A DNA stretch of 62,151 bases from positions 1 through 62,151 of IMG/VR virus record IMGVR_UViG_3300008107_000088; one strand, given 5' to 3'. The translations under genes were made by a program, and so were the position numbers. The stretch is from a virus. Position 1 is the first letter of the stretch. Every line of letters begins with the position of its first letter. Under the pieces are notes generated by a model. It ran no database searches. It saw nothing but the letters and a program-made list of their open reading frames with translations, and was not told the origin of the DNA. This document shows, piece by piece, positions 58,982 through 62,151 of the stretch.

Positions 58982-59294
58982 AGTAGTTGTGGATGACTGT
59001 TAGTTTGTTGTGATGACCAACATCAATAGGTCTAGCAGCGCAGTAGTCTTTGAACTTCTGGTGCAGGTAGTCTTTGGCAGTGTCATTCTTGGGCAATTTC
59101 TTCTTATATCGACTGATGTACTCAAGAATTACACAGCGTCCATAGACAATTTGGCTTGAGACAATTCCAACAAACCAGATGGCTGGCAGTACTGAGACAA
59201 ACCAGACACCTTTGATAAGAAGGAATGCACTTACAAATGACAGTGGACCATAGACTACTTGGCCAATTTTGTTGATCAGCCTGAGTACTGAGAT
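58920..59294 (-). CDS. Membrane protein frame with no standard start (AUC in TAATC junction)
   Basis: The frame is open from 59540 down to a TAA at 58920-58922 but has no ATG, GTG or TTG until deep inside. From the ATC at 59294, whose A is the last base of the upstream stop (TAATC), 124 residues follow: ISVLRLINKIGQ, hydrophobic stretches VVYGPLSFVSAFLLI and VWFVSVLPAIWFVGIV (two likely membrane segments), then a basic cytoplasmic-like part RYKKKLPKNDTAKDY. Elsewhere in this window junctions of this kind read TAATG. A -1 frameshift from the upstream gene at GAAAAAC is an alternative. Confidence 0.5.
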   Translation of the reverse strand: MSVLRLINKIGQVVYGPLSFVSAFLLIKGVWFVSVLPAIWFVGIVSSQIVYGRCVILEYISRYKKKLPKNDTAKDYLHQKFKDYCAARPIDVGHHNKLTVIHNYYEEASFHYLRECPVRIHCGS

Positions 59295-59797
59295 TACTTT
59301 CCTAGTTCGATGACCGTACAGTTTTTCTTCAAGGTTTCGACGGAGAGAGGTGAGTTGTCGATGGTCGAGCCGTCTTTCAGGTGCAACGTCACTGTCTTCC
59401 CGTTGAACTCGGCAATCGAGATCGCACGCAGGTTCACTCCGCTCAACGTGAATGCTGGGGTGACCAGACGTCGCTCCACCTTTTGGGTTGGACCAGCCTT
59501 GCTCGTCTGGGTCTGAGGGACCGGTGGTAGACCCTCGCTCTTATCAATCCAAGAGTGGGCCTTCTCAGTCACAATTGGCTTTTCACCCATCAGCTTGGCA
59601 AAAAGCGGAGGGAGGTAACCGTGGTTCTTGGCCACCTTAAGCAAGGTGGCCTCAATGCCACTGGAATTGGGTGAACAGAGCTTCTGAGAAGCAAGTTCAG
59701 CCACGACAGCCGACTTAGTCGGCTTGACACTCAAAGCTTTCTCCACCTTGTTAAGGGTAGAAACTGCTTGGTCTTTGTTTAGATCACTTAGTTTCAT
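59294..59797 (-). CDS. Hypothetical protein, 167 aa
   Basis: ATG 59797 with a real Shine-Dalgarno-like AAAAGGAACCA just upstream, unusual here. N-terminal helical domain (residues 1-75) and C-terminal beta domain (TLSGVNLRAISIAEFNGK, TVTLHLKDGSTIDN). Codon use is richer in C and G than in its neighbours. A weak promoter-like pair (TTGTTT, TAATAA) lies upstream inside the neighbouring gene. No family recognised. Confidence 0.55.
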   Translation of the reverse strand: MKLSDLNKDQAVSTLNKVEKALSVKPTKSAVVAELASQKLCSPNSSGIEATLLKVAKNHGYLPPLFAKLMGEKPIVTEKAHSWIDKSEGLPPVPQTQTSKAGPTQKVERRLVTPAFTLSGVNLRAISIAEFNGKTVTLHLKDGSTIDNSPLSVETLKKNCTVIELGK

Positions 59798-60029
59798 TGG
59801 TTCCTTTTATTACACCTGTGCTATCCTGTAAACAAGTTTTTCTCCCCATGGTGACGTTTGACGTCGCCTTTACATCTTTATTCGTGAACTCCCAGATCTC
59901 TCCTGAGCTGTCCAGGATCACTGTGAAGAGCTTCTCAATCTCACTGCCATAGTCTGTCACAAGCCAGACTCTGCCACGACCTTTAGGCGTTTCAACTTGA
60001 AGTGATTGTTGTACCTCTAGTATTGTCAT
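59784..60029 (-). CDS. Hypothetical small protein, 81 aa
   Basis: Beta-rich small protein: GRVWLVTDYGSEIEKLFTVI, then LDSSGEIWEFTNKDVKATSN. Overlaps the carbamoyltransferase gene upstream by 4 bp and the next gene downstream by 14 bp, so it is in one minus-strand operon with them. No family recognised. Confidence 0.55.
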   Translation of the reverse strand: MTILEVQQSLQVETPKGRGRVWLVTDYGSEIEKLFTVILDSSGEIWEFTNKDVKATSNVTMGRKTCLQDSTGVIKGTNETK

Positions 60030-61762
60030 TGAAAGTTTCCAATGACAAGAATAGGAGCGGTCATTTGGCCATTTGAAGCCTCAACCTCTTTCAGGTTAAA
60101 GGCCATATCCTCAATGGCATCTTTAGCTGAGTAAACGATAGGAACACCATGAACATTCAGAGACGTGTTGATCAACGCTGGATGTTCTGGGTAGAGATTT
60201 CTCAGGATGTTCGAGATGGGCTGAATGTTGTTTGACTCAATCAGCTGAGGTCTCCCTGAGTATCCATACTTATTGCTGAACTTTGGATAGGGATGCATCA
60301 CACCTCTGAATCGCTCAACGTCCACAGTGGGGTGGTAGTCCAGCGTAAGGATCATGTAGTCTAGAGATCCAGCTACTCGACTGATGTCACTGTGGTTGAA
60401 GAAAGCATGGGCATGTTGCTTCAACATCACTGGAGCCATAGGCATAACGGTGTCACGACCATTCAGTGAATTGATAGTCGCCACATTGTCATTAAATGGC
60501 AATGAAAGAGTTGTCGTATTGCACAAGGCTCTTGGTCCAAATTCCATCGAACCTGTGACTGTATTGACAATCTTATTTTGCTTCAGCTGAGACACAACGA
60601 AATCAATGTAGCTCTGCTTGTTGTTGAAGTAGAAGTGTCCAGGCCTGAACTCAGTTCCATTAGCACAGATAATGCCAGGAACACGAAGATCTCTGTGGCC
60701 CCACAGGAGGCTGTCCAGACCCATCACAGATCCCTCATTGTATCTCATCAAGCCAATGGCTGCACCTTGATCACCAGCAAGTGGCGTGGCACAGAACTCA
60801 CCAGGAATCTTAGATAGAATGTGGTTGTTCAGCTTGACATTGTAGTGAAGTCCTCCAGTGACAATGATGTTGTCAATTGAGAAGTCGTCGATGATGTTCG
60901 TATAGTAGTTTTCGATGATGCACTGAACGAAGTGGCCAATGATCTTACGTAGATCAGTCTTGCCAAATGCTTCCTTATTCTTGCCAGTGATCTTCTCAAT
61001 CACTTCATCAAATCTAGCCCACAGCTTATTCTTTACGCTGATCAAGCGTTCTACACTGATATAGCTTGAGTTGGAGCTTGGATCAGAAGTACGTTTTTGG
61101 AATTCATCAGCCCATTTGTGGGCCTCTGTCTGAAGATTCTTGATCTCTGAGTTGGTCAGCACTTCATCAACCCAGGTCTCATATCCCAAGAATTTATACT
61201 CATCCTGGTTTTCTTTCATGCCACAATATGAGGTGGCATACTGGTAAAGCAAGCCTAGAGAGTTTTCATAGCCATACACGCGATGGATCAGAGACATTGT
61301 GTCTGCTGCTGCATTCCACTTGTAGATGGAGAAGACTTCTTCTTTGTTTCCAAAGCCATCAGCAACACAGATATGAATGGGGTCTAGTGCTGTGGAGTGA
61401 GCCTCATAGAAAGCTCTAGCAGCCCAAGCATGAGCATCGTGATGCGTAAACTGTGGGTTAAGAGTAACGAGTTTTAGCTTGTGAGTGCTGCAAAGTTCCT
61501 CCACAAAATGTGGGTTCCAGTGCTTGTCATTGAACCCATTCTTGTGGAAATCAAAGTCATCAAACCAGTGTGATACATAGAGATACTGGGAACCCAGGAC
61601 GTTGTTCTGGTGATTCTTAAGACACTCCTCGATTGAGAGCTGAGGAAACTGAGATGAGCTCTTGATTCGATTAAGACGCTCCTCTTCATATCCAGCCACA
61701 ATACGAAATTCATCCGTAGTGATAGCTGACGAGTTGTGTCCAAGCGTAAGTAGTAAGTTCAT
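60026..61762 (-). CDS. Carbamoyltransferase, NodU/TobZ family
   Basis: 578 aa. N-terminal Kae1/YrdC-associated-type fold of O-carbamoyltransferases: LGHNSSA (7-13), GYEEERLNRIK (24-34), THHDAH metal site (106-111), ICVADGFG, GGLHYNVKLN, and the C-terminal domain with FGPRALCNTT and ALINTSLNVHG. It transfers a carbamoyl group from carbamoyl phosphate (via carbamoyladenylate) to a hydroxyl. It overlaps by 4 bp the TS/dCMP hydroxymethylase homologue at the window end, suggesting that the hydroxymethyl of modified cytosine is the acceptor. Antibiotic or nodulation substrates are very unlikely in this setting. Confidence 0.88.
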   Translation of the reverse strand: MNLLLTLGHNSSAITTDEFRIVAGYEEERLNRIKSSSQFPQLSIEECLKNHQNNVLGSQYLYVSHWFDDFDFHKNGFNDKHWNPHFVEELCSTHKLKLVTLNPQFTHHDAHAWAARAFYEAHSTALDPIHICVADGFGNKEEVFSIYKWNAAADTMSLIHRVYGYENSLGLLYQYATSYCGMKENQDEYKFLGYETWVDEVLTNSEIKNLQTEAHKWADEFQKRTSDPSSNSSYISVERLISVKNKLWARFDEVIEKITGKNKEAFGKTDLRKIIGHFVQCIIENYYTNIIDDFSIDNIIVTGGLHYNVKLNNHILSKIPGEFCATPLAGDQGAAIGLMRYNEGSVMGLDSLLWGHRDLRVPGIICANGTEFRPGHFYFNNKQSYIDFVVSQLKQNKIVNTVTGSMEFGPRALCNTTTLSLPFNDNVATINSLNGRDTVMPMAPVMLKQHAHAFFNHSDISRVAGSLDYMILTLDYHPTVDVERFRGVMHPYPKFSNKYGYSGRPQLIESNNIQPISNILRNLYPEHPALINTSLNVHGVPIVYSAKDAIEDMAFNLKEVEASNGQMTAPILVIGNFQ

Positions 61763-62151
61763 GACTTAAAGAATTTCAAATCGTGGTACAGGTGGGTGCT
61801 TAGTGCAAAGGGACTTTCAAATGTGAATTCATCGTCAAAGAAGTGTCTTAGTTGTAGCATGTCGCCTAACTCATCTGGGTGGAATGTGGGCCACTCAATG
61901 AGCGTGGCATGCTCATAGGTAAGATTCTTGTATTCAATGTGGAGTGAACCCACATTGTGGAAATAAGTACCCACATCCAATCCTAAAAATGTGGCCATCA
62001 TCTCCTGCAGCATTGTGAAAAATACCACATCTGTTCTAAACCCAAAATGAAGTTCATTTGACCTCATTGTAGTGATTAGATTCAATCGGTTATTACGAAT
62101 CAGAAACTGCAATGAGGTTGTACAGATGTGGTCACTTGTTCCAGACATGGC
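61759..62151 (-). CDS. Thymidylate synthase/dCMP hydroxymethylase homologue, C-terminal part
   Basis: The frame continues beyond the right edge; the ATG at 62148 is probably internal. Numbering from it: Cys9 in HICTTSLQF is the catalytic Cys; Arg29-Ser30-Asn31 follow at the right distance for the phosphate-binding R-S; Asp40 in GFRTDVVF occupies the place of Asn177 of thymidylate synthase (31 residues after the Cys), the change that gives dCMP instead of dUMP specificity in T4 gp42; His70 in GSLHIEY matches His207. Family members methylate or hydroxymethylate the pyrimidine 5 position. Last 40 residues are divergent. It is coupled to the carbamoyltransferase gene. Confidence 0.82.
   Translation of the reverse strand, partial: AMSGTSDHICTTSLQFLIRNNRLNLITTMRSNELHFGFRTDVVFFTMLQEMMATFLGLDVGTYFHNVGSLHIEYKNLTYEHATLIEWPTFHPDELGDMLQLRHFFDDEFTFESPFALSTHLYHDLKFFKS

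Follow-up and report, generated by a model that had tools for sequence, protein, structure and literature searches.

Introduction

Which enzyme places the group that is decorated on the cytosines of this phage, and what does the thymidylate synthase (TS)-family protein encoded beside its carbamoyltransferase (CT) actually do? The genes in question lie at one end of a linear virus record, IMGVR_UViG_3300008107_000088 (62,151 bases; here called the window), which is a genome fragment of a T4-superfamily-like phage encoding a gp23 capsid protein and a prohead protease as well as a DnaB helicase and an NAD-dependent ligase. The original prediction, made from the letters of the window, was that a hydroxymethylase acting on deoxycytidine monophosphate (dCMP) and the CT form a pair, so that the phage makes 5-hydroxymethyl-deoxycytidine (5hmdC) and carbamoylates it. 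Our analysis leads us to favour, with somewhat better than even confidence, a cytosine-hypermodification operon in which 5hmdC would be carbamoylated and the adjacent TS paralogue would carry out a second, probably non-standard step at the dCMP level.

The carbamoyltransferase carries the signature of a proven 5hmdC enzyme

The CT has both domains of its family (Pfam Carbam_trans_N, E 1e-17, and Carbam_trans_C, E 1e-24; phrog_1601, E 2e-63) and the motifs HHDAHA, DGFG, GGLHYNVKLN, MEFGPRAL and NTS. Pfam, PHROGs and the coordinates of the open reading frames (ORFs) bear out the earlier description of a complete NodU/TobZ-type gene that overlaps a TS fragment by 4 bp (Table 1). The sequence has been printed of a CT which carbamoylates 5hmdC in DNA as well as 5hmdCTP, as followed by liquid chromatography-mass spectrometry (LC-MS; eLife 2021, MetaGPA, PMC8670742). 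The window CT is 35% identical to that enzyme over the full length (E 2e-87), and the two have the C-N-T, MEFGPRALCNTTTL and NGRDTVMP signatures in common.

The residues most divergent in modified contigs are those at TobZ W408, G421 and R423 (PMC8670742), which we equated by spacing with the W, G and R of GWxxGRxEFGPRALGNR. With the TobZ numbering assigned in this way, the window CT has T/C/T at these positions and the proven enzyme I/C/T, whereas the G and R are retained by cyanophage, pelagiphage and GdmN/novobiocin-type CTs. TobZ, GdmN and the novobiocin enzyme otherwise resemble the window CT in their two domains and in the HHxxHA, GG, FGPRAL and NTS motifs, their adenylate-pocket W..G.R being replaced in the window CT by T..C.T. 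The alignments thus showed that the window CT shares its active-site identity with the proven 5hmdC carbamoyltransferase.

A search of viral contigs returned 56 CT loci related to the window CT, which with five others gave 61 for counting. A TS homologue was present in 56 of the 61, the five exceptions being truncated or short loci, and 64 of the 65 TS genes at these loci encode Asp at position 177, the residue that selects cytosine; the window CT likewise has such a partner in the gene that overlaps it. Most of the loci have a hydroxymethylase nearby, and the dN/dS of the CT is 0.06-0.08.

As in other members of the superfamily such as NodU, TobZ and GdmN, the CT could be aimed at a small molecule or at the cell surface, its TS neighbour being incidental; the superfamily is diverse, and some phage CTs, those of cyanophages and pelagiphages, have no TS neighbour. 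However, the cyanophage CT is 22% identical to the window CT, and both cyanophage and pelagiphage CTs keep ALGNRS, whereas the window CT bears the signature of the proven enzyme and belongs to a family with Asp177 TS genes close by in 56 of 61 cases. We regard such a target as very improbable. Because of the full-length match, the signature and the Asp177 TS neighbours, there is good support for carbamoylation of 5hmdC, which is of a kind already known, and as far as the CT is concerned the operon very probably belongs to a 5-carbamoyloxymethyl-dC (5cmdC) pathway. The activity was known from one enzyme, in a metagenome study, and can now be located in many defined phage operons. Such operons come with a kinase; two clades also have an additional TS paralogue from which the folate-activating acid is gone, an intact hydroxymethylase being kept.

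The adjacent TS paralogue has lost cofactor-site residues

The window holds residues 145-274 of a 274-aa TS-family protein (130 aa; PF00303, E 1.6e-9; phrog_160, E 7e-19). Its full gene was taken from a second record, IMGVR_UViG_3300005805_000056 (L002/G001; 93,636 bases), which is 98-99% identical to the window, spans window positions 5695-62151 (99.4% identity over the shared end) and extends about 37 kb further. To assign residues, the entire protein was aligned with E. coli ThyA, T4 gp42 and some 50 relatives, and E. coli numbering is used below unless stated otherwise.

The alignments confirmed the catalytic Cys, the Asp in place of Asn177 and the spacing of 31 residues between them that had been read from the fragment; the full-length comparison placed Asp, not Asn, at the base-specificity site, and the idea of a cytosine-reading enzyme survived it. 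Apart from Cys and Asp177, Thr147, Ser167, His207, Tyr94, the phosphate-binding Arg, Gly173 and Trp80 are all retained. The protein has the TS fold, nucleophile and Asp177 expected of a dCMP hydroxymethylase. Position 147 is, besides 177, the other site that separates modified from unmodified contigs (PMC8670742). A canonical TS is excluded by Asp177/Thr147, as against Asn177/His147, and by the separate ThyA of G001, G003 and G011.

The residues that handle the cofactor differ. Gln76 replaces the folate-activating Glu58 (Glu60 of T4), a change missed in the earlier reading since it lies outside the window. The two substitutions that had been noted there both hold in the full-length alignments: Glu177 for the pterin-site Asp169 (Asp171 of T4) and Glu217 for Tyr209 (Tyr218 of T4), the latter position being E, K, R or Y within the clade. 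Glu60 has been reported as conserved throughout the members of the TS, CMP hydroxymethylase and dCMP hydroxymethylase families and as the catalytic acid for activation of methylene-tetrahydrofolate (methylene-THF; PMC6400193), and the title of PDB 1bjg states that the D169N mutant does not open the cofactor ring. Gln58 and Glu169 occur together in 6/6 members of one clade (G001-G004, L106 and L134), the two halves of which are only 31-39% identical, and in no other aligned TS homologue. This Gln58 clade was monophyletic (SH-aLRT 93-94) in a tree built with the key columns removed, and the paralogue is under purifying selection (dN/dS 0.03-0.14). These dN/dS values exclude a decaying pseudogene, as do the Cys, Asp, Gln and Glu that never vary across the clade, and a sequencing error at Gln58 is excluded because all six sequences, which stem from separate contigs and metagenomes, have it. 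In prokaryote genomes there were 46 pattern matches, none of which encodes a relative, and annotated phage records yielded nothing closely related to the Gln58 clade.

Two solved hydroxymethylases provide the closest comparisons. T4 gp42 dCMP hydroxymethylase (PDB 1b5e, 6a9b) has the same fold, with Cys148, Asp179, Ser169 and a Thr after the Cys; it is 27% identical to the paralogue and falls in its sister group in the tree. It differs in the three replacements given above and in its C-terminus, that of the paralogue being longer and ending in FFKS. The CMP hydroxymethylase MilA (PDB 5b6d, PMC5175136), the top match by sequence and by fold, also has Asp at the base position, yet it retains the folate-activating acid (Glu68) and has Ala176 and Lys133 as ribose-pocket residues (PMC5175136). 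The paralogue has Ser and Arg at the latter two positions, which indicates a deoxyribonucleotide substrate; a MilA-like enzyme for CMP is excluded by the same two residues in the ribose and phosphate pocket.

The MetaGPA pair (PMC8670742) likewise combines a CT with an adjacent TS homologue having Asp177 and a residue other than His at 147. In contrast to that pair, the adjacent TS described here lacks Glu58 and Asp169, its gene precedes that of the CT and follows a kinase gene, and relatives of the window phage encode a separate, intact hydroxymethylase.

Relatives of the phage encode an intact hydroxymethylase

A syntenic, genus-level relative, G020, is colinear with the left end of the window (83% nucleotide identity over the shared 0.9 kb, 91% amino-acid identity). 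About 18 kb before the point that matches the window start, as judged by gene order, it encodes a TS homologue (G020:24360-25154) with Glu58, Cys, Thr147, Ser167, Asp169, Asp177, His207 and Tyr209. The distant 230-kb phage G011 has a Gln58 paralogue, kinase and CT together with an intact hydroxymethylase (L158:1423-2253) and a canonical ThyA (L165). The intact genes of these two phages grouped (support 99) with the hydroxymethylases beside the CTs of L094, L100 and L104, and the L094 and L100 CTs, 45% identical to the window CT, are the closest to it outside the clade.

No sequence to the left of the window was found from the window's own virus. A contig with the intact gene (L201) and one with the Gln58 cassette (G003) come from the same metagenome. 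No exact end overlap joining G026 and G021, both of one metagenome, was found, so that it is synteny, together with G011, that supports the presence of an intact hydroxymethylase alongside a Gln58 paralogue in one virus. Since Glu58 and Asp169 are replaced throughout the clade and intact paralogues occur in relatives, a hydroxymethylase role for the adjacent paralogue is doubtful, and it is likely, on this comparative evidence, that the protein is not an ordinary dCMP hydroxymethylase. The original two-enzyme proposal is thus supported in part, in its carbamoylation step.

Twelve contigs with the intact hydroxymethylase were searched for the CT and none had one, most of these being fragments and two being 153-177 kb long; this type of hydroxymethylase may also occur without this CT. 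The two long ones, L205 (176 kb) and L207 (153 kb), encode a homologue (50-54%) of the intact hydroxymethylase and have no match to this CT family, and such phages may decorate 5hmdC by other means. G020 also encodes an APS-kinase-like P-loop protein (G020:11147-11578, L183; PF01583, E 6e-16). A canonical ThyA with Asn177 was found in G001, G003, G011 and G023; it has Asn177/His147 in G001, G003 and G011, and in G001 and G003 it lies about 27 kb from the cassette (L023:3619-4608 = G001:83619-84608; L036) and contains insertions relative to E. coli ThyA.

A second Glu58-less clade and an associated kinase

In Bacteroides phage BF503P2 and its relatives the order is CT, kinase and a TS (here TS_a) in which position 58 is Leu, Met or Ile and position 169 is usually Asn, an intact second TS lying nearby. 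This second Glu58-less clade comprises 10 CT loci, and an intact paralogue was present in all 8 that extend far enough. Every member of the two Glu58-less clades has the Cys nucleophile and Tyr94. These Bacteroides fragilis phages, with CT, kinase, Glu58-less TS and intact dCMP hydroxymethylase (L016:13818-15262 and L016:17336-18016), offer a ready laboratory model for the question of what a Glu58-less TS does.

The original prediction had pointed beyond the window for a dCMP kinase or a dCTPase. A 203-aa P-loop kinase overlaps the start of the TS paralogue by 4 bp in L002 (Pfam AAA_28, E 3e-14, with a weak dNK match; phrog_2107 'thymidylate kinase', E 1e-15). Searches for a dCMP deaminase, for MazG and for a dUTPase_2-type protein gave nothing in the sequences covered, which are fragments and so no proof of absence. 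An AAA_28 kinase stands beside the TS in 16/16 loci with a Glu58-less form, as against 6 of the 40 that have Glu58 forms only, and a profile built from these kinases detected no further ones.

Two gene fusions involve the kinase. In G008 the gene directly downstream of the CT encodes a fusion of a Glu58/Asp177 hydroxymethylase with a thymidylate-kinase-like C-terminal domain that scores just below the Pfam cut-off (L009:7560-9074), which fits a kinase acting on the product of the hydroxymethylase. In L093 (6670-7944) and L094 (10140-11414) the kinase adjoining the CT is fused to a domain of the uracil-DNA-glycosylase superfamily, possibly an alternative second-step enzyme, and the sole TS homologue there is Glu58-intact.

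Possible roles of the paralogue

In the pathway that we propose, a dCMP hydroxymethylase with intact catalytic residues, encoded by another gene beyond the window, would make 5-hydroxymethyl-dCMP, which the AAA_28/dNK-type kinase would phosphorylate towards the triphosphate. The CT would move a carbamoyl group from carbamoyl phosphate, via carbamoyl-adenylate, onto the 5-hydroxymethyl group, either on the nucleotide or on DNA, and the resulting 5cmdC would protect phage DNA from nucleases. The TS paralogue would catalyse a further reaction at the dCMP level, using folate in an altered way or not at all; the known precedent for such a TS-fold enzyme is AfhB of RB69-like phages. The stronger claim, that the paralogue makes no standard use of methylene-THF, acts on dCMP or a 5-substituted dCMP in a second reaction not yet described (for example a hydroxylation, or the swapping of an activated 5-substituent via an exocyclic-methylene intermediate) and gives a modification beyond 5cmdC, is held tentatively, at somewhat under an even chance. 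If true, it would add a further phage DNA modification against restriction and CRISPR.

The function of AfhB is taken here from the titles of PDB entries only, 9iqu being 'phage HY126 dCMP hydroxylase-AfhB' and 9iqc 'Monooxygenase dependent on riboflavin with dCMP and FAD'. RB69p048, near-identical to the proteins of both entries, resembles the paralogue in having the TS fold and in retaining Cys, Thr147, Ser167 and Asp177 with Glu58 and Asp169 lost; thus a TS-fold, cytosine-reading enzyme without these two acids exists and has been deposited as flavin-dependent. The two proteins differ in that AfhB has Phe58, Asn169 and Val173 where the paralogue has Gln, Glu and Gly, in having 21% identity to each other, and in that AfhB comes with no CT and with a different kinase. 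Gln and Glu depart less from the folate enzymes than do the residues of AfhB, which we therefore take as a precedent for a change of cofactor and not as proof of flavin. The Glu58-less paralogues may serve as a natural test of cofactor change in the TS fold, which AfhB suggests to be possible.

Several points weigh against the pathway that we propose. The intact hydroxymethylase was seen in G020 and in the distant G011, not in the fragmentary genome of the window itself. Gln58 and Glu169 are conservative changes, unlike the Phe58, Asn169 and Val173 of AfhB, and with Gly173 and Trp80 kept the folate site may still work. A Foldseek run on the predicted structure of the paralogue (pLDDT 83.6, pTM 0.84) ranked MilA first, then T4 dCMP hydroxymethylase, then PDB 9iqu and 9iqc, so that the predicted fold is closer to the folate enzymes than to AfhB and lends no support to flavin; as a discriminator of folate from flavin, the fold comparison proved uninformative. 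The kinase has no homology to that of RB69 detectable in our search. Lastly, the Fisher p of 2e-9 for the kinase association is overstated, the loci being related and the clades few.

In a rival reading the paralogue would itself be a working dCMP hydroxymethylase, Glu169 or a water network taking over the task of Glu58 in an ordinary two-enzyme 5cmdC pathway, with the second hydroxymethylase of the relatives redundant or kept for another purpose. Its nucleophile and the residues that hold dCMP are all in place, CMP and dCMP hydroxymethylases are its closest relatives of known structure, a hydroxymethylase lies close to most CTs, and the changes at 58 and 169 are mild. However, the acid that activates methylene-THF is otherwise invariant in the aligned folate users (PMC6400193), and intact paralogues occur in G020 and G011 and, wherever this could be tested, beside the Glu58-less TS of the second clade. 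We consider this reading rather unlikely.

A specific form of the reading that we favour would make the paralogue an AfhB-like, flavin-dependent dCMP 5-hydroxylase. The phage would then produce both 5-hydroxy-dCMP and 5-hydroxymethyl-dCMP and have two DNA modifications, or the CT would carbamoylate 5-hydroxy-dC. The HY126/RB69 enzyme, solved with FAD and dCMP, shares with the paralogue the loss of both acids, by other replacements, with the dCMP residues kept, and a single origin of the Gln58 clade, TS_a and AfhB was not rejected by the approximately unbiased (AU) test (p 0.14; p 0.39 for the Gln58 clade with TS_a). The best tree nevertheless sets the three clades apart, and the low identity, the mismatch at 58, 169 and 173 and the first rank of folate enzymes in the fold search all tell against it, making this form improbable. 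Alternatively, the Glu58-less TS might be a non-catalytic or regulatory partner, for example by pairing with the intact hydroxymethylase in a heterodimer or by carrying dCMP or hydroxymethyl-dCMP to the kinase and CT. TS enzymes contribute Arg126/127 across the dimer. The retention of nucleotide-binding residues with loss of cofactor residues, and the co-occurrence with an intact paralogue and a kinase in two clades, would suit such a partner, whereas the invariant Cys nucleophile and Tyr94 of both clades would be needless for a pure scaffold; we find this role quite improbable.

Operon layout and neighbouring genes

The genes are ordered kinase, TS paralogue and CT, followed by two short genes of no assigned function (Table 1). 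The first of these, of 81 aa, probably shares the transcript of the CT, to judge from its overlap.

Table 1. Positions in the window of the operon genes, key codons and flanking ORFs
Feature	Position	Strand	Remarks
Predicted 5-hydroxymethyl-dC carbamoyltransferase (NodU/TobZ type)	60026..61762	-	Complete, 578 aa; Pfam, PHROGs, alignment
TS-family, dCMP-type paralogue with altered cofactor-site residues, C-terminal 130/274 aa	61759..62151	-	Start outside window; full gene L002:7569-8393
Codon of catalytic Cys154 (= E. coli TS Cys146)	62122..62124	-	Alignment
Codon of base-selecting Asp185 (= E. coli TS Asn177, T4 gp42 Asp179)	62029..62031	-	Alignment
Codon of Glu177 in place of folate-site Asp169 (T4 Asp171)	62053..62055	-	Clade-invariant
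Codon of Glu217 in place of Tyr209 (T4 Tyr218)	61933..61935	-	Varies within clade
ATGA overlap of TS-family and CT genes, 4 bp	61759..61762	-	Same in G002, G003, G004
81-aa ORF, function unassigned	59784..60029	-	4-bp overlap with CT
167-aa ORF, function unassigned	59294..59797	-	Homologue also after CT in distant relative L106

The homologue of the 167-aa ORF in L106 (L106:9802-10287) follows directly after the CT there and is 30% identical to the window protein (E 8e-15).

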